Positions 29,632 to 56,900 of a stretch of DNA of 64,000 nt are shown piece after piece; position 1 is the first letter of the stretch, and every line of letters begins with the position of its first letter. The notes below the pieces were generated by a model. That model saw only the letters and a list, made by a program, of their open reading frames with translations, did no database searches and was not told the DNA's origin. Source of the DNA: Hemicentrotus pulcherrimus (lineage: Eukaryota > Echinodermata > Echinoidea > Camarodonta > Strongylocentrotidae); contig BEXV01000778.1 of the NCBI GenBank assembly GCA_003118195.1, positions 18,008 to 82,007 on the forward strand, in the 5' to 3' direction. Both the position numbers and the translations under genes were made by a program.

Positions 29632-29941
29632 TTACATTCTCTCCTCCGCTTGTACCTGGGTTCCAAACGTAGTTGGTGTATTCGGTGGAAGATAAACCCT
29701 CAATTCATCCTCCAGGTTTGAGCCAAGATTGAGGGTTGGGTATTCCGAAAGAGAGACCCCAAAGGTGTCAATGTCGGCCATCTTTTCTTTGGAGGAGGAA
29801 ACATCATCACCCCCAAAGATGAAGGCATGGTTCGTTGGGCCTTCTTCCTCAGAGGATTTGTAGATAAAGGTTCCTTTGGTTCCGGTTGTTGCTGGGTTTA
29901 GCATCTGGATATCTTCAGTGGCAACAGATCCAGTCTTGTTC
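29632..29941 (-). CDS. polydom-like terminal exon: cytoplasmic tail and stop
   Basis: Acceptor ccttctgcag, phase 2 joins CG|G to the TM exon. It encodes ~102 residues rich in Thr, Ser and acidic residues: [40 protein letters not shown], ending VQAEERM and TAA at 29632-29634. Tyr-containing FIYKS and EYPTL could be docking sites; I know no named motif match. Confidence 0.88.
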
Positions 29942-32900
29942 CTGCAGAAGGAAATGGACACAAGGATGAGTAGACTAAATGAATTGTCTAGTCCAATCGC
30001 ACTTGGATTGAAGAAATACGTTTGTAATAAATGATAGGTAATAATTTGAAACTGAAATCAACAAAAAAATTGCATATTAAATCAAAAAAGATTAAAGGCC
30101 AAGTAAAAGAAACGTTGCCTAATGAGGACAAGATGACACTTAAATGTTTGGAATATAAATAAGAGTTTGTACCTGTTTTGTTCCCTGGGCTGCTATTGAC
30201 ATGTACAATGAGTAATTTCAAGTTGGGTGTTTAAGGATGGTGTTAGTGTTAAAAAAACACTAACACCAGACTAAACACCGAAATGGAAATAAGCTGGTGT
30301 TAAGGCTTTGACCTCTGAATATCGTCAACTTCCGGTAGCAAGTGATATCGACTTTGCAAAATTGTCGTCTGCTGAACCGACCTTTGTGGCTGGTGTTAAT
30401 ATTTTACATACAAATGTCCTATTCACTAACACTAGCCCCTAGGGATTAGGCAAATGTTGATTTCCAGTTCGGTGTTAGTGTTGTACCCGCAAACAGTCAA
30501 CGCACGAACGACGCCAATTTATTGTCTGACGATCAAATACAAATATGTGAAACAGGTATTAATTCATATATTCTTTTGTGTAATATGAGTTATTTTCTAA
30601 GACCAGAGAAATAGGTGTATTATTCTGTACTTTTCATGATATCTTTAGTTTTGATGTACTATTTTTTAATCATCGTCATGAAATCAAGTATGTGGTGACG
30701 TCACAGCTGGTGTTAAGCTATCGATTTTGATATCGGTATTGGGCTCTAAATTTCATCAGAAAAATGTTTCGCTCGATTTAAGAGCTCTTGACTGCTCTTA
30801 ACACTAACACTAACACTAACACCCAACTTGAAATCACTCAATGAATGAAAGGGGGCCGGGTCACAAAATTATGCTACAGTTAGTCATTTTTTAGCTGCTT
30901 GCAATTGGACTGTAATGCTATGGTCACATTACTCAAAAGTAGCCTGCTCGGCGGCCGAGCGGCAAGTTTTTAACCAATTATGCCCGGCGGCTGCCCAGGC
31001 ACCACTCATTTTTAGGGCATCGCTCGGTCGCCGCTGAAGTTTTAGCGCGGAGTTAAAATTTGGGCGGCGCCTGCTCACTTTTCAGTCGCCGCCCAAAATA
31101 TGCTCGGTGCCTGGGCAATCACCGCCCGGCACCGACCTAATTGCTGGGCGATGCCTAAATTCCAGCAGCGACCGAGCAGGCTACTAATCGGACGGTCGCT
31201 GCTCAGATTTGTGACCATAGCTTTACTGACCGTTCACAGCTCTTACAGCCTTCTTATGCTCGTCAATGCATAAATATCTATTTTCATAAAGCTCCACAAG
31301 GTGCTCTGGGACGGGTGTAACAGAGAAAAGGTGACTCAAAACGGAATAAAAATGCTTTGCCATGACCCATATGTCTGGCTATAGCTACATCTGGCTAGCT
31401 ATACATACCGCTGTCTGTGTTTGCACCAAGCAGCAATAAGAAGGATGATGACTAAGAGACCGACAACTCCTATTGCCGCAGCGGTGATGAGAGGAAGCGG
31501 GAAATGGTCTGGCTGAGTAGGAGGCTGAGTAGGAGGCAATGTAGTAGATACAGGAACAGGAGGAGGAACTACAGAAAAGAAGACAGACACATCATACTCA
31601 TATTACTTTTATAGAGAGAAATTGAAACTTTAAATACCGAATATGAACTTGAATATAAACTTAAAGTACAAGTGAAAGCAACTAATCAATGAACATGCAC
31701 ATAATTTGGTATGCATGGAAGTTTACACAGAAGTTAACTTTGGTGCAGGCCTAAATATCCTACTTTTTGTGTCCAGGTCTTTCAACCCAAACCATTTTAA
31801 TATCGTGTAAAGTTTTTTTTTTTTTTTGGGGGGGGGGGGGGGGGGCAAGTTTATGTCCCCTAACAATATAAATGTGAAATACAGTATTTCTTGGTGAAAA
31901 GCCCTCATTGAAATAAGACAATAAACAATGAGCTTGAAGACAATTATGTTCCCTGTCGGTGAATTTGTATTGCTTCTAATTTTAATAATGAAATATTCCC
32001 ACCTTTACATTCGGTAATGTTAGAAGCATGCATGCAGGGGGTAATTTTATGTCCTCTAACAATATAAAGGTGAAATATAGTATTTCTTGGTGAATAGCCC
32101 TCATTGAAATAAGAAAATATACAATAAGCATGAAGACAATTATGTTCCCTGTCGGTGAATTTGGATTGATTTTAATTATGAATAAATAATTATAAAGAAA
32201 CTTATAGAAAATTTTCCCACCTTTACATTGGGTGATGTTAGAAGCGTGCAGGTCATCCGTGAATGTCTCTGGAGGGCAGAGGATGCATTCATCTTGCCCC
32301 TCCTCATCTTGGTAGGTATACTGAGGACATGGGTAGCAGTCAAAATCCGTTGTGTTGCCTTCTGTAAGTGCGTAGTAAGTGCCAATCCCACACGGCACTG
32401 CATCACAAAGATATATTAAGGGAATTGTATTTAAACATAAAGTTGAGTTCTGGTCATGCGATTGCATTGAGAAAGAATAGGTGTGGAAACGATGAGAAAA
32501 AACTAATTATCTAGCATATAAGTATTCGTGGATATTGCAAGGTTCTGGAATCATCAAAATGATAAGAAATTTGGCCCAGTCTTGGTAAAGTTGTACACAG
32601 AAAGATGTATTTGGGATTACCCTATATCTATTCAGTCCGGATAGATATAATAATTTACCAAATATATCAATTAATAGGTGGATTCCCGGCAAAATGTTAG
32701 CATCACGTATTAGTCATTTCCGTCATTTCATTTTTTGAGAGGGGGGCATTTCCAAAACTGGTCTTTACCTTTAATCATGCTCCCCTAGTCATATTACAAA
32801 ATATAAAAATATACTTGATATTGTAGCTGTTGACTTGGAGGTCCAATAAATATGATTTATATTTATTCAAATATGTACTGCAATGAGAGCCTCTGGTTAG

Positions 32901-35900
32901 AAAATATGATTCCAAAAGTGATTTTGATACAAATTTTTCCTGAACAGCAAAGGCTTCGTAGGAATCAAAAGATTCCTATCTTTGCATGACCAGAGTCTAA
33001 AATGTTCACCAGAGTTTTGAATGTAATAAATAGAGGAGAGGGCAAGCAGGAAATATTTAACTTATTTCCATTGATTCTCATCAGAATCAAGTAAAACGTT
33101 GCATGCAAGCATATACACCATACCACTTTATAATAGTAATATGCCATACACAATTATGTCCCTATGTGCTGTGGTGGAGAGGAGGAAAGAAAAATAATAG
33201 AGAAGATTGAGAGATACGCTCATCATACTCTCTTTTCTTTCTTTTTAATTTTGTTTATATTGATCTCATCATCACTTTCTTGAGTCACAAGTTCTTGCAC
33301 ACAGTCTAGTGAGAGGATTTCCACCTTGTTATATTTTGAAGTAGATAAAAAAACGTTTCCATATTTAAAAAAAAAAATCCAAAAGATTATTTTTATTACC
33401 ACAAAATCCACTGACGGTGCTATCGATGTAACCAGATGGACAGTTATCCCAGATATCTCCCTTGATGGAGCTCGGGTCACCGTGTAAGACCTGGTCATAA
33501 ACCTCAAGGGTCAATGAATCATTCCTGAGAAGTGAGCTCATGTTATAGTAGAATATGTCCAGAAGTTCCATGGTCTCGAATTCTGTGATATTATCTGAAA
33601 GGAAATAATGGGCTCCAGTTAGGATTTAAGATGTAAAGGCCGCGGGTAAATTCTGTGATTTTTTTTTTTGTAAGGTGAGGAAAACGATTGGCCAATATAA
33701 TACAGAAAAGCACTTGATGATATATACAATGCCTTAAACATGCAAGAAGCATATCATTTGATTCAGTTCATATGATATCAACTGTATCATCTGAATGATT
33801 ATGGGTATGGTTAGGGACGCACTTTGGATTTTAGGTTAAGTTTATTGTTATGGTTATATAACTATATTATTTTGGTAAACAATTTAAATCAGGAACTCGA
33901 TCAGTTTAGGAAATCGACAACAGAGTAATTATTACCAGCTTATATGGTATGTCATAGCATGTCATCACTCTGCGATGTGACTGGAAAGGTAGGAGTGTCG
34001 TGGTCGAGTGGTTAAAGGGGGTCGAGTGGTTTAAGGCGCTCGATTGGAGATGCGAAGGTCAAGGGTTCGAATCCTGACACGGCACTAATATCGTTTGGCA
34101 AGATATTAACCTGCATTTGCTACTCTCCACCCAGGTGTTAAATGGGTACCAAGTAGGATGCGACCATCCTTGTTGATCAAACAGTTTTTGAGCGTCAAGT
34201 AATGCCTGGTTGGAATGCTCCCCAGGGAGTGGAGATTGTGCGCACAATGTGTGCGGGCAAGTATTGAATCCAATGACCAGGGTTATAGTATACCGGTATC
34301 TGTAAAGTGCTTAGAGACATCAAAGATGTATTAAGCGCTACATAAAAGAGGAATTATTGTTATTATTATTATTAATAGCACTCACCTGCTCCTACAGGGT
34401 GGTGTTCAACGCTCTCATTGTGAGAGACAGTGATGCTTATTTCAACCTCCCCTACCGACCGTACTGACCGGCGCTTATTGGTCTGGAGTTGGCAGTTCTT
34501 AACCTGTTCACAATGGAGGTACATGTATTAGACTAAGGCAATATAGAAATATGAAATGTTCATGAGCGTAAGAATGGAACCAGTACATTAATGACATAGG
34601 GACATCTGGCTAAAGCAGTTGCCACCATTTTCATCACCAATTGGTTGGGAAAGAGGAAGGAGAAGCGTTTTTTTTTTTAGTTCATTTTATTTCGTGGTAT
34701 ATTTATTTGAAATCTGTCTCACAGCAAAAAGATAAATCGAACAAACTTTGAATAAATATGCATTAACTGGCATAAATTGTGCACACAGTGTGTGTGGGCA
34801 AGCACTGATTCCTTTGACAGGGGTAATAGTATATTTGTAAAGCGCTAAGAGACATTTTATTAAGCGCTATAAAAAAATTAAATATTATAATATTAATATT
34901 ATAAATTAACATTTATCATAATCAATTCTAAAGAAAACAAAAATCTAAATTCTGTGGAGAAGTTCTGTGTATCTCACTTAGTGCTACAAGAAAAAACAAA
35001 CAGAATAAAAATAGATCAATAAATGAAGAAAGAGATGTACAGGTGTATTTAATGAAACTTATAAAAATCATAAATTATGATTAATGTTTCAGCAAAATTT
35101 TCATTTTTCTGTGTAGGATTTTTGTGTTTTTCACTTAGCCCCATCAGAAAAAATAAACAAAATTAAAAACCTTTCAATGAAAAAGGAGAAAAAGAATTTG
35201 TTTGTATTTTGAATACATTTTCATAAATCAGCAAAATTATTGAATTCAACAATTCTGTGTAAAATTTCCTAATTCTCAGCTAACCCCATCATATATAGCA
35301 AACAGATTTAAAATCGAATGAGAAATGACAAAGAAGAAGCATTTTGAAATTGTGGATGGATGAGGGATGACGGACCCCTTGCTGCGGCACACACTTCTCA
35401 GTCTATTTGGGCCAGATGAGCTACAAAAACACAAAATAGTGGTTTTAAACAGAGCCAGCTGTCACTATCATCACATGGAAAAATGAAAATGAAAATAATT
35501 GAAAATCAAAGATTCTACAGAACACACCATAGCCAGTATTCATCTACACACTCTTTTATCATGAGAAAGTAATGAAAGACAAATATGACCCATTTCGCGT
35601 TCACCGTCTTCAGCTAAGCGCACACACCCATGAATTCTTTACCTGGATTTGAAGAACTTTGCATGATTTTTCTCTCAGGCAGTCGATGTCGTCAGAATGT
35701 GTATTCAATGAACTGTAAGCAGCTTGTCTTAGACTCTCCTTATCACCAGCTGAAACACACACAGCACCAGGAAAACCAATGTCTAATTTTCCCGTCATCC
35801 CAAGGCTCATGGTGATTTCTGAAATTTAAGGATACTTGATCAAATGATATACAATTTCTCTTCCTTTTCAAACTTTTTCAAGGCATCGGTGACAGTAATC

Positions 35901-38900
35901 ATACATGTCTACAATGATTTATATTCTTAAGCAATGTAGATTATACATGATGTGGTAATATCATCTGATAAGATAGATCGCATAGGCAACAATGCATATA
36001 TTAATCTTAATTTGATAAATCAAACTGTTTTTACTTTACCCAGAGTCTATCTATATATCCTCAGGTCATGAAAGTGTAGTGAAGGGCTAATTCTTATTAT
36101 CACAATCTTGTTCTCAAACAGACATTTTTGCTAAAATGAGGGGTTTATCAATCAACCATGAAAATGGCAGGTATTTCAATAAAAAAGATTGGCTACTAGG
36201 AAGAGGAAAAACAAGAGTTGGATATCCTTTCAAATTTTGGTATATATGGAAGAATTTCTTATTTGAAACCTGTTTTGTATGTGAATGGCCTCAAGACAAG
36301 AATTAATCTGATTTTTACCTGTACATGAAGGAAATATGGCCCTCCTATTTTTTGATGTTTGGTGATTCCATCGGTAGTTGGTATCCTTCCCACAGAAGTA
36401 GCTTTCCATGGCCCTCTCAGCAAAGCCGTAACCACGGCGGCAGCTGATGGTGCAGTTAGTCATCTCTGGATGCTCCTCGCAGTGGAGGTAGCCCCTGAGT
36501 GGTCTTCTAAGTCTGAGACAGCCTACAAAATGAAATATATCAATAATCTTATCCCATGCAGTTTGGCATTATAGTTTAATCCACAATGCAATGAATTACA
36601 AGGCAATATGGCTTATAGTAACAAGAAGAGGAAATTCAGCAAGACAAAAATTTGTATCCATTTCCTTGGCAGAATAGTCATGTACATAATAAAAATTGAA
36701 AAAAAAACAAAAAAAACAATTTGTTATTTTTATTCAACAGGTTCATTTGATAGGCCTGTAAAAATTTCTTTTAAGAATCTAAGAGTGAAAAATGTTGGGC
36801 CAAGCTGAGGAGGCAAAACTGATTCATTTAAATTAAATTTTGGAATCTCTAAACTCCAATGGGAGGGAAATGGAAGGGGAAGTCCATAACGTTAATAAAG
36901 GTCAATTGTACAAAATTGCAAAATCCACCGAGACTAATAATGGATACGTGCTCACAAAAGTTATGTTATCATTATTCATGCATGCACCTGTGAAACATTC
37001 TATTGAACACAGGTGGAAGTAATCCTTTCAAGAGGGCAAACAAAGAATCACCTCCATGACTTGAGCTGTGATTATTCCAAAGGCTCAAAGTGGAATTTAT
37101 CTATGTTTGAAAGATCTGTGGATATTTGGGGTCATCTGAGCTATGTGCTAACTACGAACTGGTCTATTACTTAAAGGTAAAGACCAGTATTGGAAACGCC
37201 CCAATTTCAAAAAATGAAATGAAAGCTCTCATTACCAATCATGTGAAAGAATATGTTTTGACTAATACATGATGATACAAAAATTGCCGGGAAACCGCCT
37301 ACTAATTCATATATTTGGTAAATTTGTTTCTCTCATGGTCTGTGAGAGATATAGGGTAGTCCCATATACATCTTTCTGTGTATAGTGCTTGTAACTTTAC
37401 GAAGAATGGGCCAAATTTCTTATCATTTTGATGATTCCAGAACCTTACAGATGCTAGATGCTAGATGATCAACCTTTTCTGATAGATTCCACAACGTTTC
37501 TTTCACAATGCAATCGCATGACCATTACTGGTCTTTACCTTTAAATTCCAGTTCAATTTTTGTTTTACCTGGGCATTCAAACTCATTGCATGTTCCATCC
37601 TGTTCAGCCTTCCCTGTACAGTTTAGACCTCCTCCCTGTGGGGCTGGGTTGGTACAGTACCTAGTCCTGGACCGGGTACCACCTCCACAGGTGGAACTGC
37701 ACTCTGTCCACAAGGACCAGTAGGACCAGGCTCCATCAACTACAATGATGAGGGCAAGGATAATGACAATGACAATGTGAATGACCATAATAATGTAAAT
37801 GACAGTGACATGAACAAATGTAACATAATATAACACAACTACAACTGTGACAATGATAATGAAGGTGTTTAATCACTATGAACTTAAGAAAAACACTGAC
37901 ACTGGTGATGATACTGTCACAATGATAATGCTATAAAAGCGATATACAAGTTGGACAAAAATAAATCATTGAAATAGTACAGAGTTATATCTTAAATTAC
38001 TGTTTCAAGGAATGATCCATTTGCAATAGCATCTGTTTATCAAAAATCACAAGAAAATAGCTGGTCAACATCCAACTTTCCAGATGTAGCAATCCTTATA
38101 ATGTTTTTACATTTTTGAAACAATTACCTTTTCTAGTTTCGCAGAACTGCCCAGAGAATCCTTCCCTGCACAGACACTCTGGAGATCCCTCTACTGTTTG
38201 ACATGAGGCCGCGTTCTTACATAGTCCATCGCTGCACAAGTCTTGTGTGTCTGTACACAGTTCTCCCTTATAGCCACTTTCACACTCACAATGAAAACCA
38301 TCCAGTTTGTTTTCACAAGATCCATGTGTACATGGGCTCGACAAGCACTCGTCAACAGCTAAAATAAAGGGAATTCAGATTAAAAAGAAATTAAAAAACA
38401 GTGCTTACACTTCATATATGTTGTAGATGGTAGCCATTTAAAAGCGATAAATATGAGACGTCCCATTTTTAAAGCTATAATATATGGAGTAAAGTTTTAG
38501 CCCCATTGCATACCTCATTAAAAAGAAAAAAAAGTAAGTGGAAAGTAGGAGTAAAAAGTTTTTTGTAAGTATGAATTCATTCTAAAGACTCTGCTTTTTA
38601 TTAACATTCTAACGTATATGTAATAGATTTGACATCTAAAATGATCAGCATATGAGTACAACAGTAATCAGAATGAACAAGCCAGTTGATTAGAATTAGA
38701 CAAATAAAGGTACTAGTGATGGTTTCTGGAATCTAAAACATACTTCTGTTGATGCTGCTGTCACTTCATCAATAGACATAGGTACTGAATATTACAAACA
38801 CATCTGGCTTTGAATAGGTCATTTTATAATTGCAGAGGTTGATATTACATTGAACTTTAAACTTCAAAGATGTATGGTTTTTGGTGGTGTCATGGTATAG

Positions 38901-41900
38901 TGATTCATTTACTTGACTCTTAATCCAGGGGTTGAGGGTTCAAATACCAGTCCGGCACTAACATCCTTCGGCAAGACATTAATCAATTTCTGCAAAAATA
39001 TACTCAGGTGTAAATGGGGAACTAATGCAATAGGGTTTATACTTATTTTGCTGCTCAAGTATGGCAGGGGTGGTACAGCTGGAGTACCAGGAGTACCAGG
39101 GCCCTGTTTCGTAAAACTTTTTATCAAAAACAACAACCAAATATGCTCAAAGCCAATCAAAACCAAGGATTTTAGTACTGGTAGCTATAACTTTTATCAT
39201 AACTTGATATTGAAACAAGTTTTATGAAACAGGATCCAGAAATGTCACTTAAAAACAACATTATTCTTAATCTGCCAACTGCATCCTAAAGAGTCACCTT
39301 GTTAGCATACTCTTTCTACAAAAAACTTACTAACTCACCGTCACACATGGATGGGGATTCTATCTGAGTGGATGTAATGTTTTCTGATGACACCACGTCT
39401 GTCCATGAAACAATGTCACCAAAGAGGGCGGGCTGGCAAGTCGATGATATTTCCTCTAATGTTTCCTCCGCCAGACGAGAAGCCCAAACATTGATACCAC
39501 TCATGATGACATAATCTAGAGTTTAACACAAACAGTCCATAATTGCATAATATAAAATAAATCTGTATATTGATAGAATAAATGAATATGTCAAACATAA
39601 AAAAACATGAAAATGCAATATATTTAGATCTTTCTTCATGAGTGCTTACCTTTCTGTTCCATGTTACCTGAGCCCACCACAATATATCCTGGTCCAACAA
39701 CCCGAGAGGATGTCAAGGTACTATTCCTGTATACAGTGTGACCTTGATCAACAGACAGGATCCAGATGATTTCAGGTTCAAATGTCCATTGAAGACTTAC
39801 ATGATGCCATGCATTGTCACACAGTGAGGATCCTACATTGTATGACGTACTAAATTAAAAAGAAAAAAGTAGGTATTTGTTTTTAATCATTGATTTCATT
39901 GATGAAAATCGACTCAGAAAGGCCCAAATAATGAGGCCAGCAAATATTTGCAAGTGCTGTTACCTCTATTACCAACCAGTCCTATGAAGGGATCCATGCA
40001 TTTGACACACTGACAAATGTAAGCATACCTTTTACTCAAGAGTTTGAGGCTCCAGGGATTGGAAAGCAAGTACCCCTCATCTCTAACAAGGCTTGTTCAA
40101 AATGCAAAGTCTTTTTCATTTTCAATTTACCTCAAAATGGAACCCTTCTCCAGTGTCAATATAGACTGAGATTTCATTTAAAGCATTTCTCAATTTTAAC
40201 AAAGTAGGAAAAAGATAAGGAACAAAATCAAATGGAACCAAAAAAAGAGTGAGTTTACCTTTTACTTAAGAGCTTGAGGCTGCAGGGATTGGAGAGTGAG
40301 TACTCCTCATCTCCAACAATGTATGCCAAGATGTGAAAATCTTGCGGTGCGCGTAAGATGCGTATCCAGGCCGAGATAGTCATGTGACTGACATCACCTG
40401 ACTGAACATCAGCAAAATGTACTACTTCAGATTCAGGGTTGAAGACGATATCAAAATCTGAAGGAAGAGCTGTGAAATAATTCAAACAAATAATTGTTAT
40501 AATATAAAGGCTTGTGGAAAATGCCTTAATCATATATCATCTCCTAAGCGAAGTTATTTCACTTTACATAGATGTACATATAAAAATAATATCCACCTAT
40601 AGGTCACAAAAATGAAGGTATCAATACTATAATAAGACACTTTATACTTTATACTCCATACTAGCAGCAGATCGAATCAAAATCTAAAAACCATGTATAC
40701 CGAACTCTGATCTGTTCATCCATTTCACAGAATTACCAGATGAAACCCCTTCCCGATGAATAGAATTTAGTTGTCAGCATGTGCAATGAAAACAAAATTC
40801 TATCCTGAAGTAAGATTTAAAGCTCATTTCAGTAGAGGTAAATCATTGAGGCAGAACATGAGAAGCCAAAACAAAGCAATAACTGAACTTAATATTGATA
40901 TACATGTAAGTAGGCCTACAATGTATATCATATTTTCATCTTAATTTACCAAATTATAGTGATACATCTAAATTGTTCTATATGTAAATTTTTTCATACC
41001 AAATGAGATTCGACTGATGGTGAGCAAACCATTTAACCATGTAAAATGTACACTGGACAAATAATCGTTATGAAATACAAATGGTATGAAATATCTACCT
41101 GTTTCACAGAGTAATCCTGTGTAACCAGGGGCACAGTCACAGACAAATTGGGTGAACCCTTCCACGCAAGTCGCTCCATTAAGGCAAGGGCTGCTCTCAC
41201 ACTCCATGCTGGCCTCATCACAATACAGTCCTCTGCAATAGTCAATCAAACATTCGAAAAAGAAATGTGAACATTTCCATAAAGCAAAGAATATATCCAC
41301 ATACAGCATCAATTCGGACAAGGGGGTGCTTTCATAATCAATACCACTGTATTTCAATTAAATGCAATTGAGATGATAATGTAGACACCTCTATAGAAAT
41401 CTCTCTTTCTATACTGCATCCCAGTTTGTAATTTAAAAAATAATAACAGTCGACAAAACATGATTGTGTGTATTTAAAGATATCATAGTTTGTTGAACTT
41501 TTAATTTGTTTATAATAATAATAACAATGTCTATAAAGCGCAACATATCCATCTCTAGAGATGCTCAAGGTGCATGTAAGACATGTTTAATATTCACTTT
41601 GAAGTACATGAAATTCTTGAATATTTACAGACACCATTTTAATTTTACTTATATATTCTCTGGTTAATTCAGTCATGAAAAGCATGAGATATAACATGTT
41701 TGTTACCTGAAGCCAGCAGCACACTGACAGATGTAGCCACCTATGGTATCTTCACATGAACCACGATTCAAACAGGGATTTGACCCACATTCATCTATGT
41801 CAGTATCACATAATTTCCCAGTGTATCCTGCAGGATAAGGGGAAGTCAAGTTAATGAATATAGTATTAATAAAAACAAAATAATTAAAGATAAGAAACAT

Positions 41901-44900
41901 TAATTAATGCACACATATCACAGGGTGCATGATGTATTTTACAGTGCTAAAATTTATTTTCTTGTTCTTTAAATTGATTTGAGATTTCAACGACTGTATT
42001 CAAAGGAGGAAATAGCATTGTATAAACATTAACATCTAAATTTTTCATGTAATTGAGGGAAATTGTCTCCTGGATAACTTCTAATTTACAAAAACATTCT
42101 TGCTACATCTGATGTCTGTTTTCATTAAAATCAATGCCTAGTACTAACTTTAAACACACGGCTGGTAATAATGCATTATTCTCTTACCATTAGAGCACAG
42201 GCATGCGAAGCCAGACACCTGATCAATGCACGAACCATTGTTAAAACAGGGCTTGGATGAACAATCATCAATATTCATCTCACAATATGTTCCGTTGTAT
42301 CCTGGTGGGCACTGGCAGATATAGCCACTGACCTGCCGTACAGAAAGAACAAAAAATACAATATCTCTGTCAAACAAACACACAATTAAAGAATACGTGA
42401 CCTGTACAAGTATTATAATCATTGTCTGTAAACTATTTTACCACTAGTGCTAACAGGAACAATCACCTGTTCACCATGAGTGACAATTGGCACAAACAAT
42501 AGGCAACACTTCAAAAGTTTTGTAATATAGCATCACCTAATTCCTACCCTAACTGCTTACAAGAGAAGCCTTATATCACCTGTAAAAAATGGTTTGGTTT
42601 GGTTTGGTGTTTGTTTAACCCGACTGCAAAGCAAGCAGGTGTATGCATGTAACAGTAAGCAACCACAGCACCGACGGCTTTAAGTCTTCCCTGAGGGACT
42701 TGGTAATGAGGATTAATGCCTTACCAAAAGGCACTAGCGCATCAAGTTGGTTTTTAACCCGGAACCTCCCAGTTACAAGACCCCTGCTCCACCACTGAAC
42801 CATCGCACCTCCTTATATAATAAACTTAACATGAAATGTTAAGATAGTCTAGATGCCTTTGGTGAAAAATACACCTTGTTAATTACAACATGGCAAAAGG
42901 AAATTAACACGAGTGGTACATAAAGGGTTAAATCTTATGGATCTGACATGTGCTTTACATTTCAATCATACCTGGTCTAAACAAGTAGCACCATTCTCAC
43001 AGGCATTGTTGACACAGTCATCCACATCCCTCTCACAGTCTTTCCCTGTGAAACCTTCCAGACAGGCACATCGGAATCCCAAATCACCATCCTCCATGCA
43101 TGAGCCTCCATTTGTACAGGGATGGGAAGAGCACGCAAGGATCACCCGGAGCTGGCATTGGATTCCAGTGTAACCGGGAGGACATCGGCAGTGGTAGCCT
43201 GCAACTTCATCAATACAGGTAGCATTGTTTTCACACTCGCTGTTCAAACAGTCGTCTTCATCGACCTGTTGATAAGGAATGAAATACGGGTATCAAGACC
43301 AAATCCAAGCAAAATAGGACATGAACCCTACCATTTGATATAAGTCTGATAATTTCAAACTCCTTGGCAATCAAAATGTAAACATCAAAATTGTCCCTAA
43401 TCTGCACAAAGAAATCCTCACACTACTGAATATCAGAATCTGCATGACTTTCAAATCAAATGCAATGTGCCTAGACAGACTCTCCTTTCCATGTCATTTC
43501 CTACAGAATAGATAAATCAAAATATCATTACAAATCCGCTGAACCTTACCTCACAGTTTGTTCCATTGAAGCCTACAGGACATTGACATGTGTAACCCCT
43601 TGGTCTATCGACGCAAGTCCCGTTGTTCAGACACGGAGCACTGACACACTCATCTTGGTCGGTCTCACAGTGGATCCCACTGAAGCCCTTGTAACAGAGG
43701 CATGTGTAACCATCGATATGATCAAGGCAAGATCCTTGAATGCAGGGGAAGCTAGAGCACTCATCAATGTTGACTTCACATGTGTTACCAGTGAAACCTG
43801 ATAGGCAAGTGCAACTTTTGGAGAGAGAGAGGATATTAAAACATAATTACACATTTGTAAAGCTGAAGAAGAGAGTCATGACACCCAATACCTAATACAT
43901 CCTTTATATGTGTACATATGCACATGGTCAAGAAGTAAATGAAAATAGTTACTAGGGGAAGATAAATTATTTGGAGAGTATAATATGCAAGTTAATGTAC
44001 ATGCCTTTTCATCGCTTCATCGTATCAATATGATTTTGCTCCTTCAGAATTAATCCAATATGATTTCCTGAATTCTTTAACAAAAATTGTATATATAAAT
44101 CCAGCAAAAAGCGTTCATTATTAAAATACTAAAATGTTAATGCACGTCCATTAGGGTACATCAGTTATCTCAACACACAACCCAACAACATACATGAGGT
44201 AAATGGGAGCCTGGCAGGAATTAATTCCATGAAGTGCTAGAGCGCCAAAATGGCAGCTGTGCTAAAGCTTGGCCGGTATNTCCTTCAGAATTAATCCAAC
44301 ATGATTTCCTGAATTCTTTTTAAAAAATTGTATATATAAATCCAGCAAAAAGCGTTCATTATTAAAATACTAAAATGTTAATGCACGTCCATTAGGGTAC
44401 ATCAGTTATCTCAACACACAACCCAACAACATACATGAGGTAAATGGGAGCCTGGCAGGAATTAATTCCATGAAGTGCTAGAGCGCCAAAATGGCAGCTG
44501 TGCTAAAGCTTGGCCGGTATTAATCGTGGAGTGCCAGGAGTGCCAAGACATACATCAGCACCCTACAAGAACCCACTATCATTATTATTATTACCACCTT
44601 TGTCAATAACAGAATAACTGAATTCTTGTGCACACATGGAAACAAAAAGGGAATGTTTTTAATGGAAAATAGTTACATTGTACAGATGCTATTCTTGATT
44701 CTTGGATAACTAGAAAAGAACCTTCTGACCTACATTTGTATCAATGCATTAACATACTCACGTGAAACCAGTTTGAAGACTGGTGCATACACCATCGCTT
44801 AAACAGGGTTCGCTCTGGCAGAAATCAACTGGGATGTTGCAAACAGCACCTTGGTATCCATGGAAACAGTCACATGACCAGGAGTTAATCCCATCCTCGC

Positions 44901-47900
44901 ATGTCCCGTTGATGCAGGGACTGGAAAAATTGAATAAGGTACACTATCAAGATTGTATAGATATATTTCAAGAAAATTAGGCAGCAAGAGGAGTACATGC
45001 ATAGAATTAAATCTATGTATGCATGTAGCTCTATAAGTAACATTATTTTATACATTCTTTGTAGTAGGGGATTCCTAACGAAGCCAAATGTGGTTTTGTT
45101 AGGTAATAACAAGGCAAAAACTCTGAAACAAATATCAGCTCAATATAATACTTCTCGTTAGAACGTGTAATATAATAACAATAAGAACTTGAAAAAATAA
45201 CCTCACCACTCAAACTGAATAATTTCCTTTTTTGGTCAAGACTTCCCAAACAAATTTGTAATAAATTTTTAGAAATAGAAACTTTACCTTGACGAACAAT
45301 CATCTATGTTTTCTTCACAAGTGGGTCCAGAGAATCCAAGTGCACATACACATGAGAAGTTTCCTATCAAATCCAGGCAGGTTGATCCATGAAAACAGGG
45401 CTCACTTACACACTCATCAATGTCTATTTCACATTGCGACCCTGGTTACACAAATGAAAGTGATGAACACAGGTATTACATTGAGAGAAATCAATGAAAT
45501 GTAAACTACTCTTCACCTCTACACTAGATGGATGCTACAGTGACAATGGCCTTTAATACAGTGTTATACACATATACATAAGCTGCACGAAACGAAAAGA
45601 ACAAGCACTTTGAATCTAACATTTATCTATTTCAAAGTTCAAAGTCTGCAAATAATTAAGAATCTCAGAAATTATGGGTTAATTTTCTCAGCAATAGTTG
45701 CATGATAGATCCCTTTTGCAGTGGCAGCAAAATTGCTGCTCTTACAATCATATTACTGACTACTATTTCTAAACTCCATAAATAATAACTTCTAAGCAAA
45801 TATCGACCAAGGTAGCTGTACATCTGTGGCACTTTTGTCTCGCATACCTTGGAATCCAGGGACGCATCGGCAGGAGAAGGTTTCTCCCCTGCTGATACAG
45901 GTTCCTCCATTGAAACACAGACCATCTCCATCACAGAAGTCCACCACATCCAGACACTCCGCCCCAGTCCTGCCAGGAGGGCAAAGACATTGGTAACCAC
46001 CCACCAGCTCTAAGCAGGTGGAATTAGGCCCACATGGGTTCCAGGAGCACTGGTCGATATTATCATCGCATGTTGGGCCTGTGATCAAAACAATGGCACT
46101 CATATGTAACCTATTGGAAATAAATTATACATGGTTTGATGTTAACCATTCTTTAAAGCATTTATTTTACTCATAAATCAACTGAATTGGAAACCTACAT
46201 TCTCATTAAGGTATCTGTTAGTACAGAAATTATATTCATTTTATAATGAGTGTTTAAGGACTGCTTTGATACAAAATCTGCCGCCTGGTTATTTTGTAGA
46301 ATTGCTAAAATAGAAAAAGCTTTAATAACAATAGGCATATGCATGCAACTACCTTAAAAGTTTATGACTTTTGTAAAACAAAAAATCTATGCATTTTTGA
46401 AAACACTGTTATTCAAGAAAACAAAACATGTTTTATTTGAACTATGTACAGATGCTACGATGTTATTTCAATTGAATGTGTATGATTGTTTGATTTGTTC
46501 AATAAATTCATTTTACAAAAAAAGAAAAAAAAAGTTCATGACTGATATTGCAAATCCTGTCTTCTTGTAAGACTTGATTAATTACAGGTCATTCAGTTTG
46601 TGTATAGAAATACTTGAAACCAGCATTGATTCACAAACCTGTAAACTCTTCAGTGCAAGTACAGGTAAACCCATCCACATCGTCCAGACAGGTGGCTCCA
46701 TTAGAGCAAGGACTTGATGCACAGTCATCCCGATTGACCTCACAGTCGCGACCTAAGAACCCTGGTTGACATTCACATGTATAGACATGAGAAATGCCCT
46801 CTCCTGTCGCAGCCTGACACGATCCTCCATTGAGACAGGGATCATCATCACATGCGTTTCTCTGTCGCTCGCAGAGCTGTCCTGCATAGCCCGCTTTGCA
46901 GAGGCATTCAAACCTGTCGATGAGATCAAAGCAGGATCCGTTGTTTAGGCAGGGGTCACTGGAGCATAGGTCAATATCCACCTCACACTGTGGACCCTCA
47001 TACCCTGAGGTAATGCAAATAAAAAAATAAAATAAAAATATTACATCTGATCTGATTTGATTTGCATTTGTTCAGACAATACAAAAATATGTCTGATATG
47101 TCCAGATAAGAAAAGGAATTATACAAGTTACAAAACAAAACAATATCAATATATTGCCCAAAGTAATACATAAACAAGTTAATAAACCATGTACAAATTA
47201 TGATGGCACTCAATGTTATGGTGTTGTAAAAACAAGAATGAATTAAGTGATTTAATGTTAAGAAGTTTTTCAAGCATGAAACCTTCGAGGTGTCAATGAA
47301 ATTATTTCATTCCATACCCAAAGAAGCTCATCTTCTTTGTGTGTATTTTATACAGATTTCGGTGGGAACAATAGAGTAGTGTTCTTTATATAAAGGTGAT
47401 GGTATGCTGAGGCAACTTTGACTGTAAAAGGAAACACTCTACTATCGTAATGGCAACCACTTCTACACCTCTATGATAAACACAACCACACTCTAAAGAT
47501 TTCAATATACACCATGCACTGCTCCAAAATCTGGCCTTTGAGCACTGTAAACGAATTTCAAAAAGGTTTACTAACCAGTGCTACAAGAACAAAGGAATCC
47601 ATTGACTTTATCCCGACAAGTGCCTCCATGCAGGCAGGGATGGCTGTGGCACTCGTTGATATCTCTGGAGCAGTTCAACCCAGAGTACCCAGCAGCACAA
47701 TCACACTCATAACCACCACCACCATCCTCCCAATCCAACACTGTGCAGGTAGCAGCATTGAGGCAAGGATTCGGGGAGCATGGGTGAAGCACCATGTCGC
47801 AGTCGTCACCATGGTACCCTGGTAAACACTGGCATTCGTAGCGTGTCGCAGAGCTGATGCAGGTTGCGTTGTTCTGACACGGCAAGGTCTGGCAGAGGTC

Positions 47901-50900
47901 AAAGGCTACTTCGCATTCCACTCCTAAACAAAACAAGAACATGTATACTAATAAAGTGGCATAGCTATTCAAAAAGTGTATATACTGAAACAGTGGTGTT
48001 GCTTCATGAACAGGAAATAACACGACCTCCTCCCCTCATTAGATGGTCTTGCTCTCTTATTTAAGTCATTTGGCAAGGACTAATTCCTACCATAACACAT
48101 GTATCCACTCAGTGGCAAATCATCGCTATCACAATGTTTGTGCAAAGGCTTTTATCATCTAGATTTCTTTTTCTTTTTGGTTTTATTGTTCAAAATTCAT
48201 GAACATAATTTACAAAAATATCAGATTCAATATATTAATGTGTATGTTTCAGAAATGCCTATTGCACTGAAATGAATGATGTAGTGACTTGTGCATTTAT
48301 CTTTCTTGGTTCTATAAGGACAGTCTAACCCTGGTTAAAATGCAGGTGTCTTTTACTAACAATAATTTGTTGGTGACATTCGCACCAAAGTCTTAAAGGA
48401 GTCACACCAAGAAGCAAAAGTGTTTTGAATTGATGCAAAATTCATATCATTGCGAAGGGAAAGCCTTACTGATCAATTACAACAAATTTCCTCTTCAAAA
48501 AATGTTTTGGGCCCGCAGAAATCAACTTTCAAAAATATTAGTTTTGAGATCCAGATTTACTGCCTATTCGTATTTTGTCGTATTTTGTCGTAGTTCTTCG
48601 TGTGACGTCACACCCTGGACACGGCTGTTAAAAAAAGGCTGCTAGCTTCCGCTTGGTCTGCAGCTAGACGCACTAAGCGGAAGTTAGCAGCCGGTACCGA
48701 GCTGTTTGTCCAGGGTGTGACCTCACTATTCAGAGCTCGCTACGCTCGTTTGTTTGGCTTACGTTCGGGGGCGCTTGGGGGTTTAAGAAGGGTCTTGAAA
48801 AATGGCATTTTACGCCTCTCCACGATATCTATATGATTTCTCAGCAAATTATTCTTGTTTTTCAAGAGAAAATCTTTCCATCCATATGTAATTTGTTTTA
48901 ATTATCAGTTTTCAGTAAATTTTCTTTGTGTAGCTCCTTTAATGTATAGCATGAAGGATTTTTTTTTTTTACTGGTTTGTCCACTTTTTACCAAGCAAAG
49001 AAGATGAAGATACAGAAAACAGGTTCACTGTTATTTTGATTAGCTTATCAAATAAAACAAATAGGAATGTACAAATTACTTCTATGGCCTCGGTTCCACA
49101 ACTCACCTGTAAATCCAGGGAGACATGCACAAGCATAACCATTGACAAGATCAACACAGGTCCCATTGTGGAAGCATGGCTGATAGAGGGCACAATCATC
49201 AATATCAATCTCACAGTCTCTGCCACTGAAGCCTGAAGCGCATATGCACTGATAGCTGCCTGTGAGGTCAACACAGGTCGCACAATTCTGACATGGATCA
49301 GATGCACATTCGTTGATATCTAAGAAAGAAGTGAAATTAAGGCAATAACATTATAATCTCTACTATCACCATGTACTACACATTATAGGAGCCGTCAGTC
49401 ACTTGAAGAAAGAAAATTGCATATCAGTTTGTGTTCACGTAGTGTATACCGAAGCATATGATATCACATAAAAATTCTAGGACATTTTTTTCACTCACTA
49501 TTTTTTAATTATATTCTTAAATAATTTCTCATAAATCTATGTAAAAAATGTAAAAACAGAAGAACACTGACAATATTTCTCATGTTTTAGTACAATGGTA
49601 ACCATGAATACAATGTGTTGTGTATAAAGAAATACTCCAAATTTACAAAGCAATGATCAACACTTCATATCCCATCATTAATCAGCTGTTACAACACATG
49701 TACATGTCAAAAACATCAGTTACAAGAGGAATAAGTTATTACGTTTTTGTATGCAATAAATACAAAATCATAAACAAGTTCAATTATATTGCTACCTGTG
49801 CACTCCTGCACTGATTGTGCACCGCTGCTATTGGTGGAGAGTTGTCCAGGGCAAGGGTCACATGACGTCTGTTGCACACGACTTTGATAGGAACCCAATG
49901 GACATGGATTGCAAGGATCAAAGCCAGAGAGGGAGAAGGCACCAGGTGGGCAGGGCTCTATTGGGAGGGAAATAACAAATGATGTAGTACCACATATCAG
50001 TGTTAATAGACCATTTTGTAATGTAATAAAATTTAAAGCACAGATCTTTGTTAAGTGCCTTGTTTCAAATTATATTATTCACCTGTTACAAATAATTGTA
50101 TTTTAATAGTAAACAATTTAATTTAATAGCGAATTGCATACATTATCTAAAGTTAGGTAGGACAAGCCATAATGTTTGTTCTACGTAGTAAAAATTAATG
50201 TATGCAATTAATCGTAACAAGTGTATACATCAATTTGATTACATTACGAAAATGGCCTACTAAAAAAAGTACATTATGATACATCATGTTTTACATCCTT
50301 CATATATTTTATGTTTTTAATTGCATTACAATCAAAGTACAAACTTGACAACATTGATTAGATTTTCTCATTTTGTGTTTGTTTTCTCTCAACTTAGACT
50401 AAATGTTATCTCAATCTTCATCATATATTTTTACCTTATACAGAAAGTTATGAAGAAAATGATTGCCTAACTGTGTTTTTTCCAAGCAAGTATGAATACC
50501 GAAATATATCATTATACTTGTAACAAAACTAAAGGCAAAAGAATCATATGAATATAAGTATTCACATTTGTAACTTAAAAATTTCAAGATTCAAGATTTC
50601 AAGACATTTTATTTAGCCATAATCATGAAAAAGATACCCCCACCAAAGCAAATATATATACCAGTATACAGTATGGAATATGGAAAGGACCAAAAGAAAA
50701 GCAAATGTTTGTGTGGAATTGCCCTGAAAGAGAGTTAAGAAACAACAATAGCAAAACAGAAACCAAGTAGATAGAAAGTAAAATTAATAAATAAAAGAGC
50801 ATTTATGGTAAAAATAAGCTATTGCAAAACACACTAAAAAGTACTCAAGGGTTCCTTCCTTTTGACTTACCCATACATTGTTTCATTTCATTGCAACCGG

Positions 50901-53900
50901 AATTCAATGTGGTGGTTCCGCTAGGGCACTGAAGGCACGTAGTGCTAAGAGGGAGAGACTGGTAGGATCCTATAGGACACTGCTGACATGGGGCTACGCC
51001 AGTGGATGAGAAATGGCCAGCCTCACAGACATCTGAAAAAACATCAACAGGTTATGATAATTAGTGTGGAACATAATAAGCAAGTAAATATACAGGTAAG
51101 CAGAAAAAGAAAGTCTCGTATAAAAAAATTGTCTGGGGGAAGGAAAAAGGTAGTCAAAGCAGTCACTGAAGATAGAGGTGGCCAATGGTGGATATGACGG
51201 GGAATTTGGGCCATCTCCCCAGCATATAATCTGTTTTGAAGCAGAAGGGTGCTAGCATTGTTCCAGAGCATGCTTGGATCCAAGCCTTTCTGACTCCAAA
51301 CTGCTGACCTCTTAAGTACCCAGTCAGCCTAAAAATGTGGTAACCTTTTAAAATTTTGTTTTTAGAATTTTCGGAGTTGTCTTGTGGAAGGTAAAGGGTA
51401 GTCAAAGAACAAAGAAGTCGCTGAAGATAGAGGTGGCCAGTGGGGTGTATAATGAGGGGATTGGGGCCATCTTCGGGGGAGGAACCCATTCTGACTCCAA
51501 GCTGTTGACATTTGTTTGAGAATATTTGGATCGGCCCCCCCCCCTCTTCCCTCCTCCAGCCAAAGAATCTTGGATCCGCCCTGGGTGACAATTGTAAAAG
51601 CTTTGACTGAATATGTCTTGGAATGCTTCAACAGCTGCCTGCTTACCTAAACACTGTGTAGCATTGGTTGACCCTTCTTCCTCTGTCCATTTGCCTTCTT
51701 CACATGGGGTGCATGCTGTCTGTGCTTCAGAGTCTTGGTAGGATCCCCTGGGACAGGCCTGGCAAACATGGGTCACGTTGTCAAAGAAGGTCCCCACGAT
51801 ACAAGGAACTGGAAGATAATAATAATGTCTTATTTACCCAGGGTGGCCTCATCAGTATCAATATTGTTCTCCCTGAGGGCCCTGCAATCATATTACCCCA
51901 GCTTAAGACGAGCTACTTTGATGGCGCACAAGCATTAAAGGAATTTCTTCCTATGTCGAGATGGATTAGGCAAAATCAAAGAAGTAGAACAAGGTGAATG
52001 ACCAGTAGTCACTCTTGCAACTTGTTGGAGGTTATGATCATCAGGTCATGAATATTAATTTAGAATGATGAAAAGTAGAGATCAAACTTTAAAAAGCTGT
52101 AAAAAATGTTCTCATAGAAATTCTCCAAAAATATGTACAAAATTATAACAAATTAGAAGAAATAAATAATAGTTGTACAGGCCTAAATGTCTTCATGTGA
52201 CTCTGCTCCGTCAGTACATTGTTAATATTGATGAATACTTGGAATCACTGCTCTGTTGATATTCTTCTATTTCACACAGTTTAAAACATAATAAAAAGGA
52301 ATGGATGGTTTAAATTATTTCTGCCTCATACCACACTGTAGATCTAGATTGTCTGCTGTGAATCCATCATTGCATATGACCACTGCATAGTCGTATGTCA
52401 GCGACTCCTAGTCCAGGGTGAGGTTGGTTCCATAAACATCTGTGAAATCAGGAAAGGTTCCTTCTATGATCTGATCGTAAAGGATATCGTTCATGGCCAC
52501 CATGATGTCCTCTGCAGCTCTGGCAGCATCAAAGTTAACCAGGTTTGGGTCTTGATTGATGTTTACTACAAAGTCCCATTCAATGGACACCACGAAAGGA
52601 CTGTCAGCCTGTCGCTTCAGGCGATGTTCTGCCCTCTCCTCCATCTGCGATGCAGAATCCCCTTTCCCCTTGCTTCTAAAGAGTCTCCTTTGAGGAATCT
52701 CTCTACGGCCTCTTCGTCTGACCTCAAGGTTTGGTCCGCATGTGACCCTGACATTATTCGCAGTGCACTGGTCAGACTGGGTGCAGACACTGCTGAAGTC
52801 AGTTCCCTGAAGGACTCCCAAGAAGGCATTTGCAATTTGGTTCAGGCTGTCCTGCGTGCCACACACTCCAGAGAAGTATAGAAGCTCATTTGGAAGGTTG
52901 CACCAGCCTGGCCTCTTGATAGCTTTTAAGAATGCAAGCACAAATATTTAATCATTATGAGAAAAAATATTATGAAATAAATACAAACATTCAACTATGT
53001 CTGTAGCCAAATCAACCGATTGTTTTTTTTCTTCATCCTATGGCAAAAAAACCCACCCTACTTCATTCTTGTTACATTATATTTGGTATACAAGGGTCTC
53101 CAAGGTAAAACTCCCTCTTATTTCAGGTTTCTCATCAATCCTTATCATTCTGAAAGACCCATACTTTGTTCAAGTTCAGACTACACCATACTCCATGTGA
53201 CCCGAGCAAACTGTACAGCTGGCGAAAATGCCTCTCAAGCCTCTGCACGACTTGGTAATGACCTCCCACTATCTGTCCACCTGTAAATCTCCTTCATTAG
53301 ATGTTTTTAATTCCAAGAACTATCAGCTGCATGCATCAACTTAAAAAAAAAATTGTTCTTACGAATACCATCTTTTACCTTACCTGAGCAATCTGGTACA
53401 TAGGCATGAGGGCTCCAGAGGCCGCTACCTCCACAAACATAGTGCTCAGGCGGCTGCCGGGATGACCGAAGCCTTGGGATGTCAAAGTTTTCATTGCAGA
53501 AAATGCTGCAGAATCGTCCATACGCCCACTGGTCACAGGACAATGCTCCATTCCCAGGCGCTCTCAGCTCATTGCAAGTAACAGCTGAAAAATAATGAGA
53601 AGTTATAATTTTGTTTTCTTACAAAGCATGTTTAAATGAATCATGTCAACATTTAATTTTTTAAAATGTTTAATAGCCTTCTGGTTCATTTTGACTGTGC
53701 CATGGTAGTCACTGCCAGCAAGCAGTAGTTGGCAGGTTTAAATCCCACTGGTTCCAGAATTTTATCTGACTTGCTTTAAATTACAAGATCGAGCATGTGA
53801 TCTCTATTTACTAGGTGCACGCCAACAATTACTTTAAAACAGAATTCAATATGTTCAGGGGAATACATCTAATAGCTGCAGAGCAAACTATTATGCAGGA

Positions 53901-56900
53901 GACTAAAGATCCAATCCACAAGAAATAATATTTGCTAACATATCATCTTGATACTTCCTATCAATATTTGATAAACATGAAAGAATGTGCTAATTTCTGA
54001 AACTTACGTGCGACTGATACAGAAAAGTCACATCCAACCGTTTTTCCATTGTCCGTATTTGAGGCTAGATAGCTGACAACATGTTCTCCCCATGGGAATG
54101 TTGCCATATGGTTGTCATGGTTACTGGTGATGAGGAGGTCATCCCCGGTGACCTCTTCAAAAACTGGTGTTTCCCAGGTGACTTCGGTCAAGACCTCACT
54201 GGTGTTGACATGGATGTCAGCAGGGCAGAAGACTACTACAGGAGGTATTTCATCTAGAGTATAAGGGTCAGTTCAAAAATACATTACCTGTGCCATCCAC
54301 AGCAAAGAAAAGGGATGATAATTACCATGTACATATATACCTTAAAATTAACTGAAATTGCTTAATTGAACAAATAAAAATTGAAATAGACTTAACTAAA
54401 AGGAACTAAAGAGAAATCGATTTCCATTAGACATTTTAATCTTAACTGAACTATTTGAAACTACACAGAACAGGAAAACACTATGGTTAAAGCTCCAAAA
54501 CAAAACGAAAGAAATATGACACATCAAAGAAAGATAGAACTGAATGATAGCAAATCTAGACATATCTTAATTGAGCTACATCATAATCAAATATGTCTTG
54601 AATTTGAAATTTGAAACAATGAATAACCTATTACAAACCCTAAATTCGAGTTAAGGAGTCGCCGTTTATCACAATTCTAGAGTTTCCTTGGATCTGATTC
54701 ATATTCTGTGTATAATAATTTGATTTAAATCGAACTAGTTAATGCTTAACAATATAATATACATCAGAAGACCAGAGAAAACTTGCTAGAATTGATGTAT
54801 TCTAAAAAGACCTATCTTTATAAGTTATCAACATAAATTTGACACATCAATATACCAAACACATCTCTAATCATAATAGTCACATTCAAATCATAATTAA
54901 TTCAGCGCCTAAAACTACATTTCTAAGCGGTTTACATTGCAATTATTCTCTCCAATGTTGTCCACATTTACATATGCCTTCATTTTACCTTGCACATAGA
55001 CAGAGAAAGAGCATGTCACAGAGTTGCCAGCTGAATCTGAAAACGTGTAGCTAGCCACAGCATCCTCTGTGAAGTTAAAGGGGGAGATCAGATTTTCAGG
55101 CAAGGTGGTCACAGAGAGGAATCCATCGGCATTATCCTGAGCTCTGGGTAGGTCAAAGGTCACTTCTACACCCCAGACTTCAGTACGGATGACTGACAAG
55201 GGGCCAGGGCAGAATGTCAGCGTTGGAGCTACTTCATCTACAAGAGAACATAGAGCAAAATAGATTTGTTCAACATTAAAGTACAGCATATCCATGCCGA
55301 GATCTGCAGAGACGTTTTCCCAACCATGCCGTGAGGGTTTGTCAGAGAAGTAAGCATTTTGAATAAAAGAATTTCAATACCGAGATTCATCATTATTAAT
55401 CTATGCTTGTATATTAAGAGTGAGCAAAATCTTGATATGCAGTTGGAATGATTTAACACAAATATTTAACACAAATATTTTACACCTTTATTTTTCATAC
55501 ACATGCAAGACAGGTTACTTTTCTGCTCTCTACCCATGCATGTCTACCGAATTGCAAATTTAACTTTAGATTTGATTATGATTCATTTTGTGATTTGACT
55601 TTTTTTTAAAGCAACTGATTCTTTTTCAAACAGTATGGATCACTGCATCATTTCGCATTATTTCATCGTCCATACCAATGCATGTCACATCGATTGCGCC
55701 AACATCCACGTCCCACTCTCCATCTGCGGCACAGGAGACTGAGTGTACAGCGCCCTCTAAAGTCAGTCCATTGTGGCAAAAGAAGGTGCATTCTGTCCCA
55801 TAGTAGAGCTTCTCCATACTGGTGCATGTGGCAGGGTACACATTGATGTTCAGTGGAAGGTCCAGGGGGTCACATCCAACAACTATGGGGAAAAAGGGGG
55901 AGAATTTAACCAACAAAAATACCCCCAAAAGAAGAGATATACACAAATAGAGAGAGATGAAATAAAATCCATGAATATCAGCTGTAGTAAAGTGAATTTT
56001 ACTCTAGCAATTTCGGTTTAATCCTTTGTAGACTTACAAAGAGATTATTTTTGCTTTAAATAGTGAATCATGCATAGTATTAAATAGAGTAAATGGTAAG
56101 GTAAATAATGTCACAAAATCCACATCACAGCTAAAGCATAAACATTTTACAAAAAAGAAAACAGATGAGATAGAGATTTAACATACATGCAAGATCACAG
56201 GGAGCTTTATTTCCCTACCTTAATTAAGAAAATTAACACTTACTATCACAAAATGGTGTGGTTTCTCTCTGCCAGTGCATGCGTTGCCCTGTGTAGTTAC
56301 AATGAGTTAGGCTCGGACCAACAAGAGAGTATCCAGTAGCACATTCCACTTCACACTCGCTTCCCCATATGTTGTCACATGATCCAACAACATTACCAAA
56401 CACGGGCGGGTAAAGAGGTTGACATCTTCTCACTAAAAATGAAATCAATATAAGAGGAAAATAACTGTGAAGACGGATTTATGATTGAAGTAAAAGGGTA
56501 GCCTCATGAATTTAAATACTACTCTACGTTGTATAATCAAAATAGAAAAAAGAACTTTGATATCTCCTCTATAGGATACCAATGAAATGAAACAAAGAAG
56601 TTGGCGAATAGACATGAAAATCACCAGCTGCGACTGGATAGTGCACTATACTGACCAACCAAAGCAACTCTCAAAAAATTCTTTCATCTACTTACCTCTC
56701 ACAGTGATCTCAAAGAAGCAGGTCTGTGTATTGCCTTGAGGATCCGAAGCAGTACATTCTACAGCATAGTCCCCTTCAGGCTTCACTCCTTGCTCCAGGT
56801 TACACACAATATTGGTGGCAGCGGTGGGATCATTATCAGTGGCCTGTACATCCCAGGTGATATCAGCGAGTAGTTCTCCTTCAGGAGTATAGACAATGAA

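Follow-up and report, generated by a model that had tools for sequence, protein, structure and literature searches.

A recurring six-cysteine module in a SVEP1/polydom-like gene of Hemicentrotus pulcherrimus as a possible cleaved SEA-like domain

The 64,000-nucleotide stretch of the sea urchin Hemicentrotus pulcherrimus analysed here (the window; positions 18008-82007 of contig BEXV01000778.1, or C777, in a 414-Mb genome) carries on its minus strand, from 64000 to 29633, a single animal gene of SVEP1/polydom-like type, as judged from exons, splice signals and domain matches. This gene holds two modules, M1 and M2, each between a CCP domain and Ephrin_rec_like repeats. They appear to be copies of one extracellular six-cysteine domain of about 160-200 residues, which would be the unnamed stretch between CCP4 and the STT2R repeats of vertebrate Polydom/SVEP1, the probable place at which secreted Polydom is split into Pol-N and Pol-C. 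We lean, by a little, towards a SEA-like domain that undergoes a furin-type cut between strands 2 and 3 and whose halves remain associated.

The anatomy of the gene, the cassette, the cysteine framework, the paralogues and the basic sites were observed directly. The four module exons that had been predicted on the minus strand are flanked by AG/GT and are open except for one TAG in 52332-52922, and all landmarks named for them were found (FSGVC/FPGAVC, RLKR, KRRSVR, a hydrophobic strand, a helix and C-x-x-G-F/Y...C). Cysteines stand at 21, 47, 53, 62, end-14 and end-1 in M1, with an additional one at 8, and at 21, 47, 53, 63, end-14 and end-1 in M2. Under random placement such a match has a probability of 1.2e-4 in the N-terminal half and 7e-4 in the C-terminal half, for a measure picked after the pattern was seen; one EGF exon with 12 cysteines likewise coincides at three framework positions. 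Repeats of the GCC2/GCC3 type follow both modules as claimed, being Ephrin_rec_like repeats, three after M1 (E 2.8e-35) and one after M2. A six-cysteine CCP does precede each module but is divergent, with 20.4 bits against a Sushi cut-off of 20.7 before M1 and no Pfam family before M2.

No database gave the module a name, as the original prediction had supposed. Pfam returned no family for M1 or M2 at E 1 and none for P0002, a relative of M1, or for the four half-modules at E 10; NCBIfam and viral contigs had no match, a search of the PDB by sequence gave nothing under E 0.4, and tblastn found no third copy within the window. Among 5.77 billion predicted proteins the M1 query found one close relative (P0002, 88%) and the query with exon 3 of M2 found one (P0003, 88% over 58 residues), while the long gene model as query of the protein database found no relative. 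Further downstream, P0003 repeats part of the end of this exon once more, as CPSSYIDSTVNGFCG.

When P0002 was used as query of the H. pulcherrimus genome, two further modules were found, M3 and M4 (E 1.3e-9 and 3.9e-8). M3 is a single exon on contig C1830, with two Ephrin_rec_like repeats downstream and, beyond a masked stretch, a CCP-like exon upstream that has no Pfam match yet is like the CCP before M1 (z 16.9). M4 has two exons on contig C777, preceded by HYR-HYR-CCP and followed by two Ephrin_rec_like repeats; its CCP reaches the Pfam Sushi cut-off with 20.9 bits. The cysteines are at 20, 46, 51, 60, end-15 and end-1 in M3 and at 21, 49, 55, 64, end-14 and end-1 in M4. The gene of M4 is a second SVEP1-like gene on the other strand (G000:C777:128001-148000; L009, L010), about 50-60 kb past the end of the window.

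The original prediction aligned M1 and M2 by eye. The framework behind that alignment is shared, but M1 and M2 are hardly alike when their sequences are scored. BLASTP found no match, and local alignment with gap costs of 11/1 gave a score that 452 of 2000 shuffles equalled when free and 568 of 2000 with the cysteines kept. The semi-global score was reached by 1 of 2000 shuffles, or 5 of 2000 with the cysteines fixed, and cheaper gaps (10/0.5) gave a modest likeness (3, 9, 3 and 7 of 1000 shuffles). With the halves taken apart and the cysteines kept, the likeness was weak (51/2000 before the basic site, 140/2000 after it), and when P0002 replaced M1 the after-site score was reached by 919 of 2000 shuffles. 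Pairwise scoring was rejected as the only proof of homology, because its outcome varies with the method. A profile from M1 and P0002 had no match in M2. The profile from M1, P0002, M3 and M4 scored 24.8 against M2 (E 0.0035), a score reached by none of 100 cysteine-kept shuffles (best 18.6); the match covers the last 21 residues (C-x-x-G-Y...C) and has an HHalign probability of 9%. Because it spans these residues only, the case for full-length homology is made by the framework, the order, the cassette and the site.

A basic site comes soon after the fourth cysteine in each of these four modules of the genome: RGRR and later also RLKR in M1, KRRSVR in M2, RRRR in M3 and RRKR in M4. Loss of the second basic stretch in relatives had been named as the point that would speak against the original prediction, and among the paralogues it is kept, because the stretch after the fourth cysteine is basic in all four modules (4/4). 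Of M2, only the third exon was seen in another species, and its own site was not. Of the two predicted places of proteolytic splitting, the one in M1 is well motivated, with two R-X-[KR]-R sites and the cut known from mouse Polydom; the one in M2, which has only a minimal R-X-X-R, is a prediction from its residues.

The fold, the protease, the association of the halves and the function are what we infer. AlphaFold gave pLDDT 33 for M1 alone, and the fold search with this single-sequence model was uninformative. With M1 and P0002 as a two-sequence input it reached pLDDT 52 and pTM 0.53, predicting strands at 5-17, 51-62 and 110-121 and helices at 23-39, 90-104 and 129-152. This amounts to beta-alpha-beta, a basic loop and beta-alpha, in which residues 63-108 with the basic sites have pLDDT <50. 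The best Foldseek E value was 0.36, with a chain of a mesothelin-Mucin16 entry ranking third, and VIA-align gave the MUC16-type SEA domain 6.7, Trop2 6.6 and EpCAM 6.5, intermixed with HMG-CoA reductases at <=6.5. The model suggests a ferredoxin-like class; the extracellular nature of the protein and the loop are the reasons for preferring SEA within it. The complete fold would be strand 1, helix 1, strand 2, the flexible basic loop, strand 3, helix 2 and strand 4, a SEA-like arrangement of ferredoxin type.

The cut would be made by a furin-type convertase of the secretory pathway, in the loop that joins strand 2 to strand 3. The four framework cysteines of the N-terminal half and the two of the C-terminal half could each pair inside their own half, and the halves would therefore be held by the sheet they share, like those of Notch or of furin-cut GPR126; they might part upon force or ligand binding. 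M1 would then place a cut within the ectodomain. M2, with the weaker site, is one small repeat and a stalk away from the membrane and might serve as a shedding joint. A wider proposal is that SVEP1/Polydom, SCUBE and the window gene share one convertase-cut SEA-like domain that moves in a mobile cassette (CCP, SEA-like domain, Ephrin_rec_like) and acts as a mechanical lock, holding the cut protein together against anything short of a pull, with two locks of distinct lineage in this gene, one within the ectodomain and one next to the membrane, and force freeing two different fragments; this is possible, if doubtful.

Several results weigh against a SEA-like domain. The SEA profile (PF01390) had no match in M1 or M2 at E 1, nor in P0002 and the half-modules at E 10. 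Autoproteolysis of SEA domains takes place at a motif of the G-S-[VI]-V-V type. The motif appears in PMC6954182, and neither M1 nor M2 contains the corresponding pattern G[ST][IV][VIL] (0 in each). In the preferred reading the module would work like a SEA domain, but it is not filed as a SEA member because neither the profile match nor this motif was found. SEA sequence matches are absent at every threshold tried, the model is weak and the fold matches are tied, and the seventh cysteine of M1 could bridge the halves. All this would suit a module with a fold of its own, in which the loop is cut and the pieces separate or are held by disulfides, as a maturation step and no mechanical lock. Such a fold is rather unlikely in view of the predicted order of strands and helices, in which strand 2 leads through the basic loop into strand 3, the SEA-type domains that head the VIA list, and the even number of cysteines per half in M2, M3 and M4.

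The basic stretches might also remain uncut and bind heparan sulfate or other matrix partners, with the published cut of Polydom lying elsewhere, and the minimal R-X-X-R of M2 agrees with this. It is improbable, since strict convertase motifs occur at one place of the module in M1, M3 and M4 and are kept in P0002, and since the published piece sizes fit a cut there when a provisional human sequence is used. That M1 and M2 are not one domain, sharing only the C-x-x-G-Y...C end by the Ephrin_rec_like repeats with the remainder an unrelated linker of chance likeness, is a little more improbable still. It would account for the failure of BLASTP and strict local alignment, for the profile match in the last 21 residues and for the unlike after-site halves. 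It leaves the shared N-terminal cysteines (21, 47, 53, 62/63), repeated in M3 and M4, the matches of M3 and M4 to M1-type sequence, and the identical cassette and place of the basic site to coincidence. The in-frame TAG in M1, finally, could mark a broken gene copy in the assembly, whose protein would stop in M1 and lack both M2 and the membrane end. This is very improbable, because every other exon is open with splice signals, P0002 is open at that place and exon 3 of M2 is kept in a relative; a variant or an assembly error is equally likely as the source of the TAG.

The comparison with the vertebrate protein depends in part on a provisional human SVEP1 stretch. We take it to have cysteines at 22, 47, 55, 66, end-12 and end-1, plus RIKR, with the module part unverified. 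Counted back from the residue numbers in PMC10281526, it places the site after about residue 904, giving backbones of about 98 and 293 kD, and it reproduces D2638 and E2641 of that paper. According to the same paper, mouse Polydom is cut upon secretion into pieces of 115 and 270 kD, and a putative cleavage site in SVEP1 is marked in PMC9932102. Plate-bound Polydom has been measured by anti-Pol-N, which is only a hint that the halves stay associated. Among the literature matches listed for svep1 and furin none concerns the cutting of SVEP1, judged by title. The provisional human module was not significant against M1 and M2 (360/1000 and 170/1000 shuffles, semi-global; profile E 0.16), and against a profile of M2 and the SCUBE-like module described below its score was reached by 17 of 60 shuffles. 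Because of this, the human link rests on the flanks, the cysteine spacing and the place.

The original prediction also proposed an ancient cassette duplication. The same kind of module does occur twice in the same cassette, but to read this as one cassette copied within the gene is too strong, since M1 shares its grouping of flanks with two other genes and M2 with a SCUBE-like gene. In a tree of the CCP and first repeat M1 falls with M3 and M4, and M2 with SCUBE (support 98/97; five rows with long branches). When provisional human SVEP1 was added, it stood on one side with M2 and SCUBE (95/95), and M2 beside SCUBE (92/90). As far as these alignments indicate, the two cassettes are related, but neither sisters nor a recent copy of each other. 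The CCP before M2 resembles the CCP before M1 (0/500 shuffles, z 4.7). The CCPs were rejected as proof of a cassette within the window, the one before M1 being nearer to the CCP at 63248 (z 8.5) than to that of M2 (z 4.8), and provisional human CCP4 being about equally near to the CCP at 59266 (z 7.5), to that of M2 (8.1) and to that of M1 (6.1).

Within the window, the sequence that best matches the repeat after M2 is repeat 1 after M1 (42%, E 6.4e-4); across the genome it is a repeat of the SCUBE-like gene on contig C377 (51%, E 4.3e-6). This gene comprises EGFs, then a CCP-like exon, one exon that carries C-x3-C-x8-C and ARRKRQ, a helix exon with the end C-x2-G-H...C, three Ephrin_rec_like repeats and a CUB domain (E 2e-10). 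For the first module exon, searched with a demand for phase and a cysteine at 17-26, there is a single candidate with a strand-like stretch, a cysteine at 21 and a helix-like stretch. The CCP-like exon gives z 8.9 to the CCP before M2, z 6.2 to that of M1 and z 3.0 to that of M4 (4/500 shuffles). By profile the module does not stand above shuffles (68/100 and 46/100 reach its score); a partial version was reached by 2/40, with M4 alone by 33/40 and M2 alone by 2/40, and the full version by 2/60 with M2 alone and 35/60 with the provisional human module. The SCUBE-like gene probably holds the same cassette, a link that rests on the cassette, the order, the framework and the site. The helix exon is present twice at 100% identity (60924-61136 and 56744-56956; L024, L025), perhaps an assembly duplication.

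The 5' end of the window gene, where an N-terminal VWFA domain as in SVEP1/Polydom would lie, falls outside the window. Splice signals judged by eye guided the choice of exons, and the limits of some EGF and LamG exons are inexact. The gene runs from HYR and CCP exons through the CCP before M1, M1 and three Ephrin_rec_like exons to a long EGF array, a LamG/pentraxin-like stretch under the Pfam cut-offs (20.6 against 22.9 bits and 20.1 against 27.6 bits), two EGFs, TSP1 and the CCP before M2, followed by the M2 exons, a single Ephrin_rec_like exon, a stalk rich in proline together with a transmembrane helix, and a tail (Table 1). The helix has a hydropathy of 3.05 over 19 residues, the maximum of the model, and the next separate peak is 1.29. 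The protein is membrane-anchored with M2 close to the membrane; the original prediction overlooked this transmembrane end as well as the in-frame TAG.

Table 1. Features of the two module cassettes and of the C-terminal end in the window
Feature	Position	Strand	Basis
CCP exon before M1, six cysteines	53384..53584	-	Sushi 20.4 bits, cut-off 20.7; exon by splice signals
Module M1, single exon	52332..52922	-	AG/GT flanks; relative P0002 88%; no Pfam family
M1 basic site RGRR, then E	52702..52713	-	R-X-[KR]-R; retained in P0002
M1 basic site RLKR, then Q	52612..52623	-	R-X-[KR]-R; retained in P0002
In-frame TAG within M1	52408..52410	-	P0002 open at same place
Ephrin_rec_like repeat 1 after M1	51647..51808	-	PF07699
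Ephrin_rec_like repeat 2 after M1	50871..51032	-	PF07699
Ephrin_rec_like repeat 3 after M1	49796..49957	-	PF07699
CCP exon before M2, six cysteines	36319..36522	-	No Pfam family; resembles CCP before M1 and CCP-like exon of SCUBE-like gene
M2 exon 1, cysteines 21, 47, 53	35643..35818	-	AG/GT flanks
M2 exon 2, cysteine 63, basic site and predicted strand 3	34386..34503	-	AG/GT flanks
M2 basic site KRRSVR, then S	34459..34476	-	Minimal R-X-X-R
M2 exon 3, predicted helix 2 and C-x-x-G-Y...C end	33400..33594	-	AG/GT flanks; relative P0003 88% over 58 residues
Ephrin_rec_like repeat after M2	32221..32398	-	PF07699, E 1.2e-11
Proline-rich stalk and transmembrane helix	31407..31568	-	Top hydropathy of gene model
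Cytoplasmic tail, C-terminal end of protein	29633..29942	-	After acceptor, frame open to stop

The window also contains other repeats. Directly after the Ephrin_rec_like exon of M2 there are 141-nt tandem copies at 31841-31981 and 32037-32177 that are 91% alike, and beside them, at 32004-32033, a 10-residue copy (HASNITECK) of the end of that exon. A 240-nt tandem duplication (98%) lies between exons at 44040-44520. A decayed CCP-like copy with a stop is found at 61846-61957, and repeat family D4 links it to 61207-61299 and 61309-61401. A 93-nt repeat is dispersed at 34045-34137, 38918-39010 and 62128-62220; it has a tRNA-like B box and is perhaps a short interspersed nuclear element (SINE).

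SVEP1 is tied to human coronary disease and to lymphatic development, and the accessible SVEP1 literature offered no structural account of how it is split into Pol-N and Pol-C. Should a SEA-like domain be the place of the cut, Pol-N and Pol-C should travel as one heterodimer, and plasma assays and studies of the ligands Tie1, PEAR1 and integrin alpha9beta1 would therefore read differently. Sharing of the domain with the SCUBE spacer, which is likely, would give two families one testable domain.

Compared with known systems, the window gene has the order HYR-HYR-CCP-module-Ephrin_rec_like (STT2R)-EGF-pentraxin-like in common with Polydom/SVEP1, the vertebrate order around the module being in part provisional. 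The accessible SVEP1 literature gives the module no name. SVEP1/Polydom is secreted and ends in a CCP array and EGFs, whereas the window gene has EGF-TSP1-CCP-M2-Ephrin_rec_like, a transmembrane helix and a tail in place of the C-terminal CCP array. Polydom-like proteins of Nematostella have a Sushi-HYR-TKE core in all members and TSR in some, according to PMC12549020. The SCUBE-like gene resembles M1 and M2 in its cysteines (21, 44, 48, 57, end-13, end-1) and in RRKR followed by Q soon past the fourth, but has two further cysteines in the module and a CCP-like exon without a Sushi match; the window gene, unlike SCUBE, has a transmembrane helix and tail after the last Ephrin_rec_like repeat, and a Pfam search named no CUB there. 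A relevant paper linking SVEP1/polydom to a SEA domain was not found in the accessible literature. The module differs from SEA domains in its own six-cysteine framework, the lack of a GSVVV-type motif and of a sequence match, and a fold that is weakly predicted. With the SEA and SEA-like domains of Mucin-1, Mucin-16, the Notch heterodimerization domain, GPR126, EpCAM and Trop2 it would share the order of strands and helices, as predicted, a loop prone to cleavage after strand 2 and before strand 3, and a location beside the membrane or between adhesive domains. SEA-like domains are described as proteolytic switches in PMC6586460, and GPR126, as presented in PMC6954182, is the nearest precedent.

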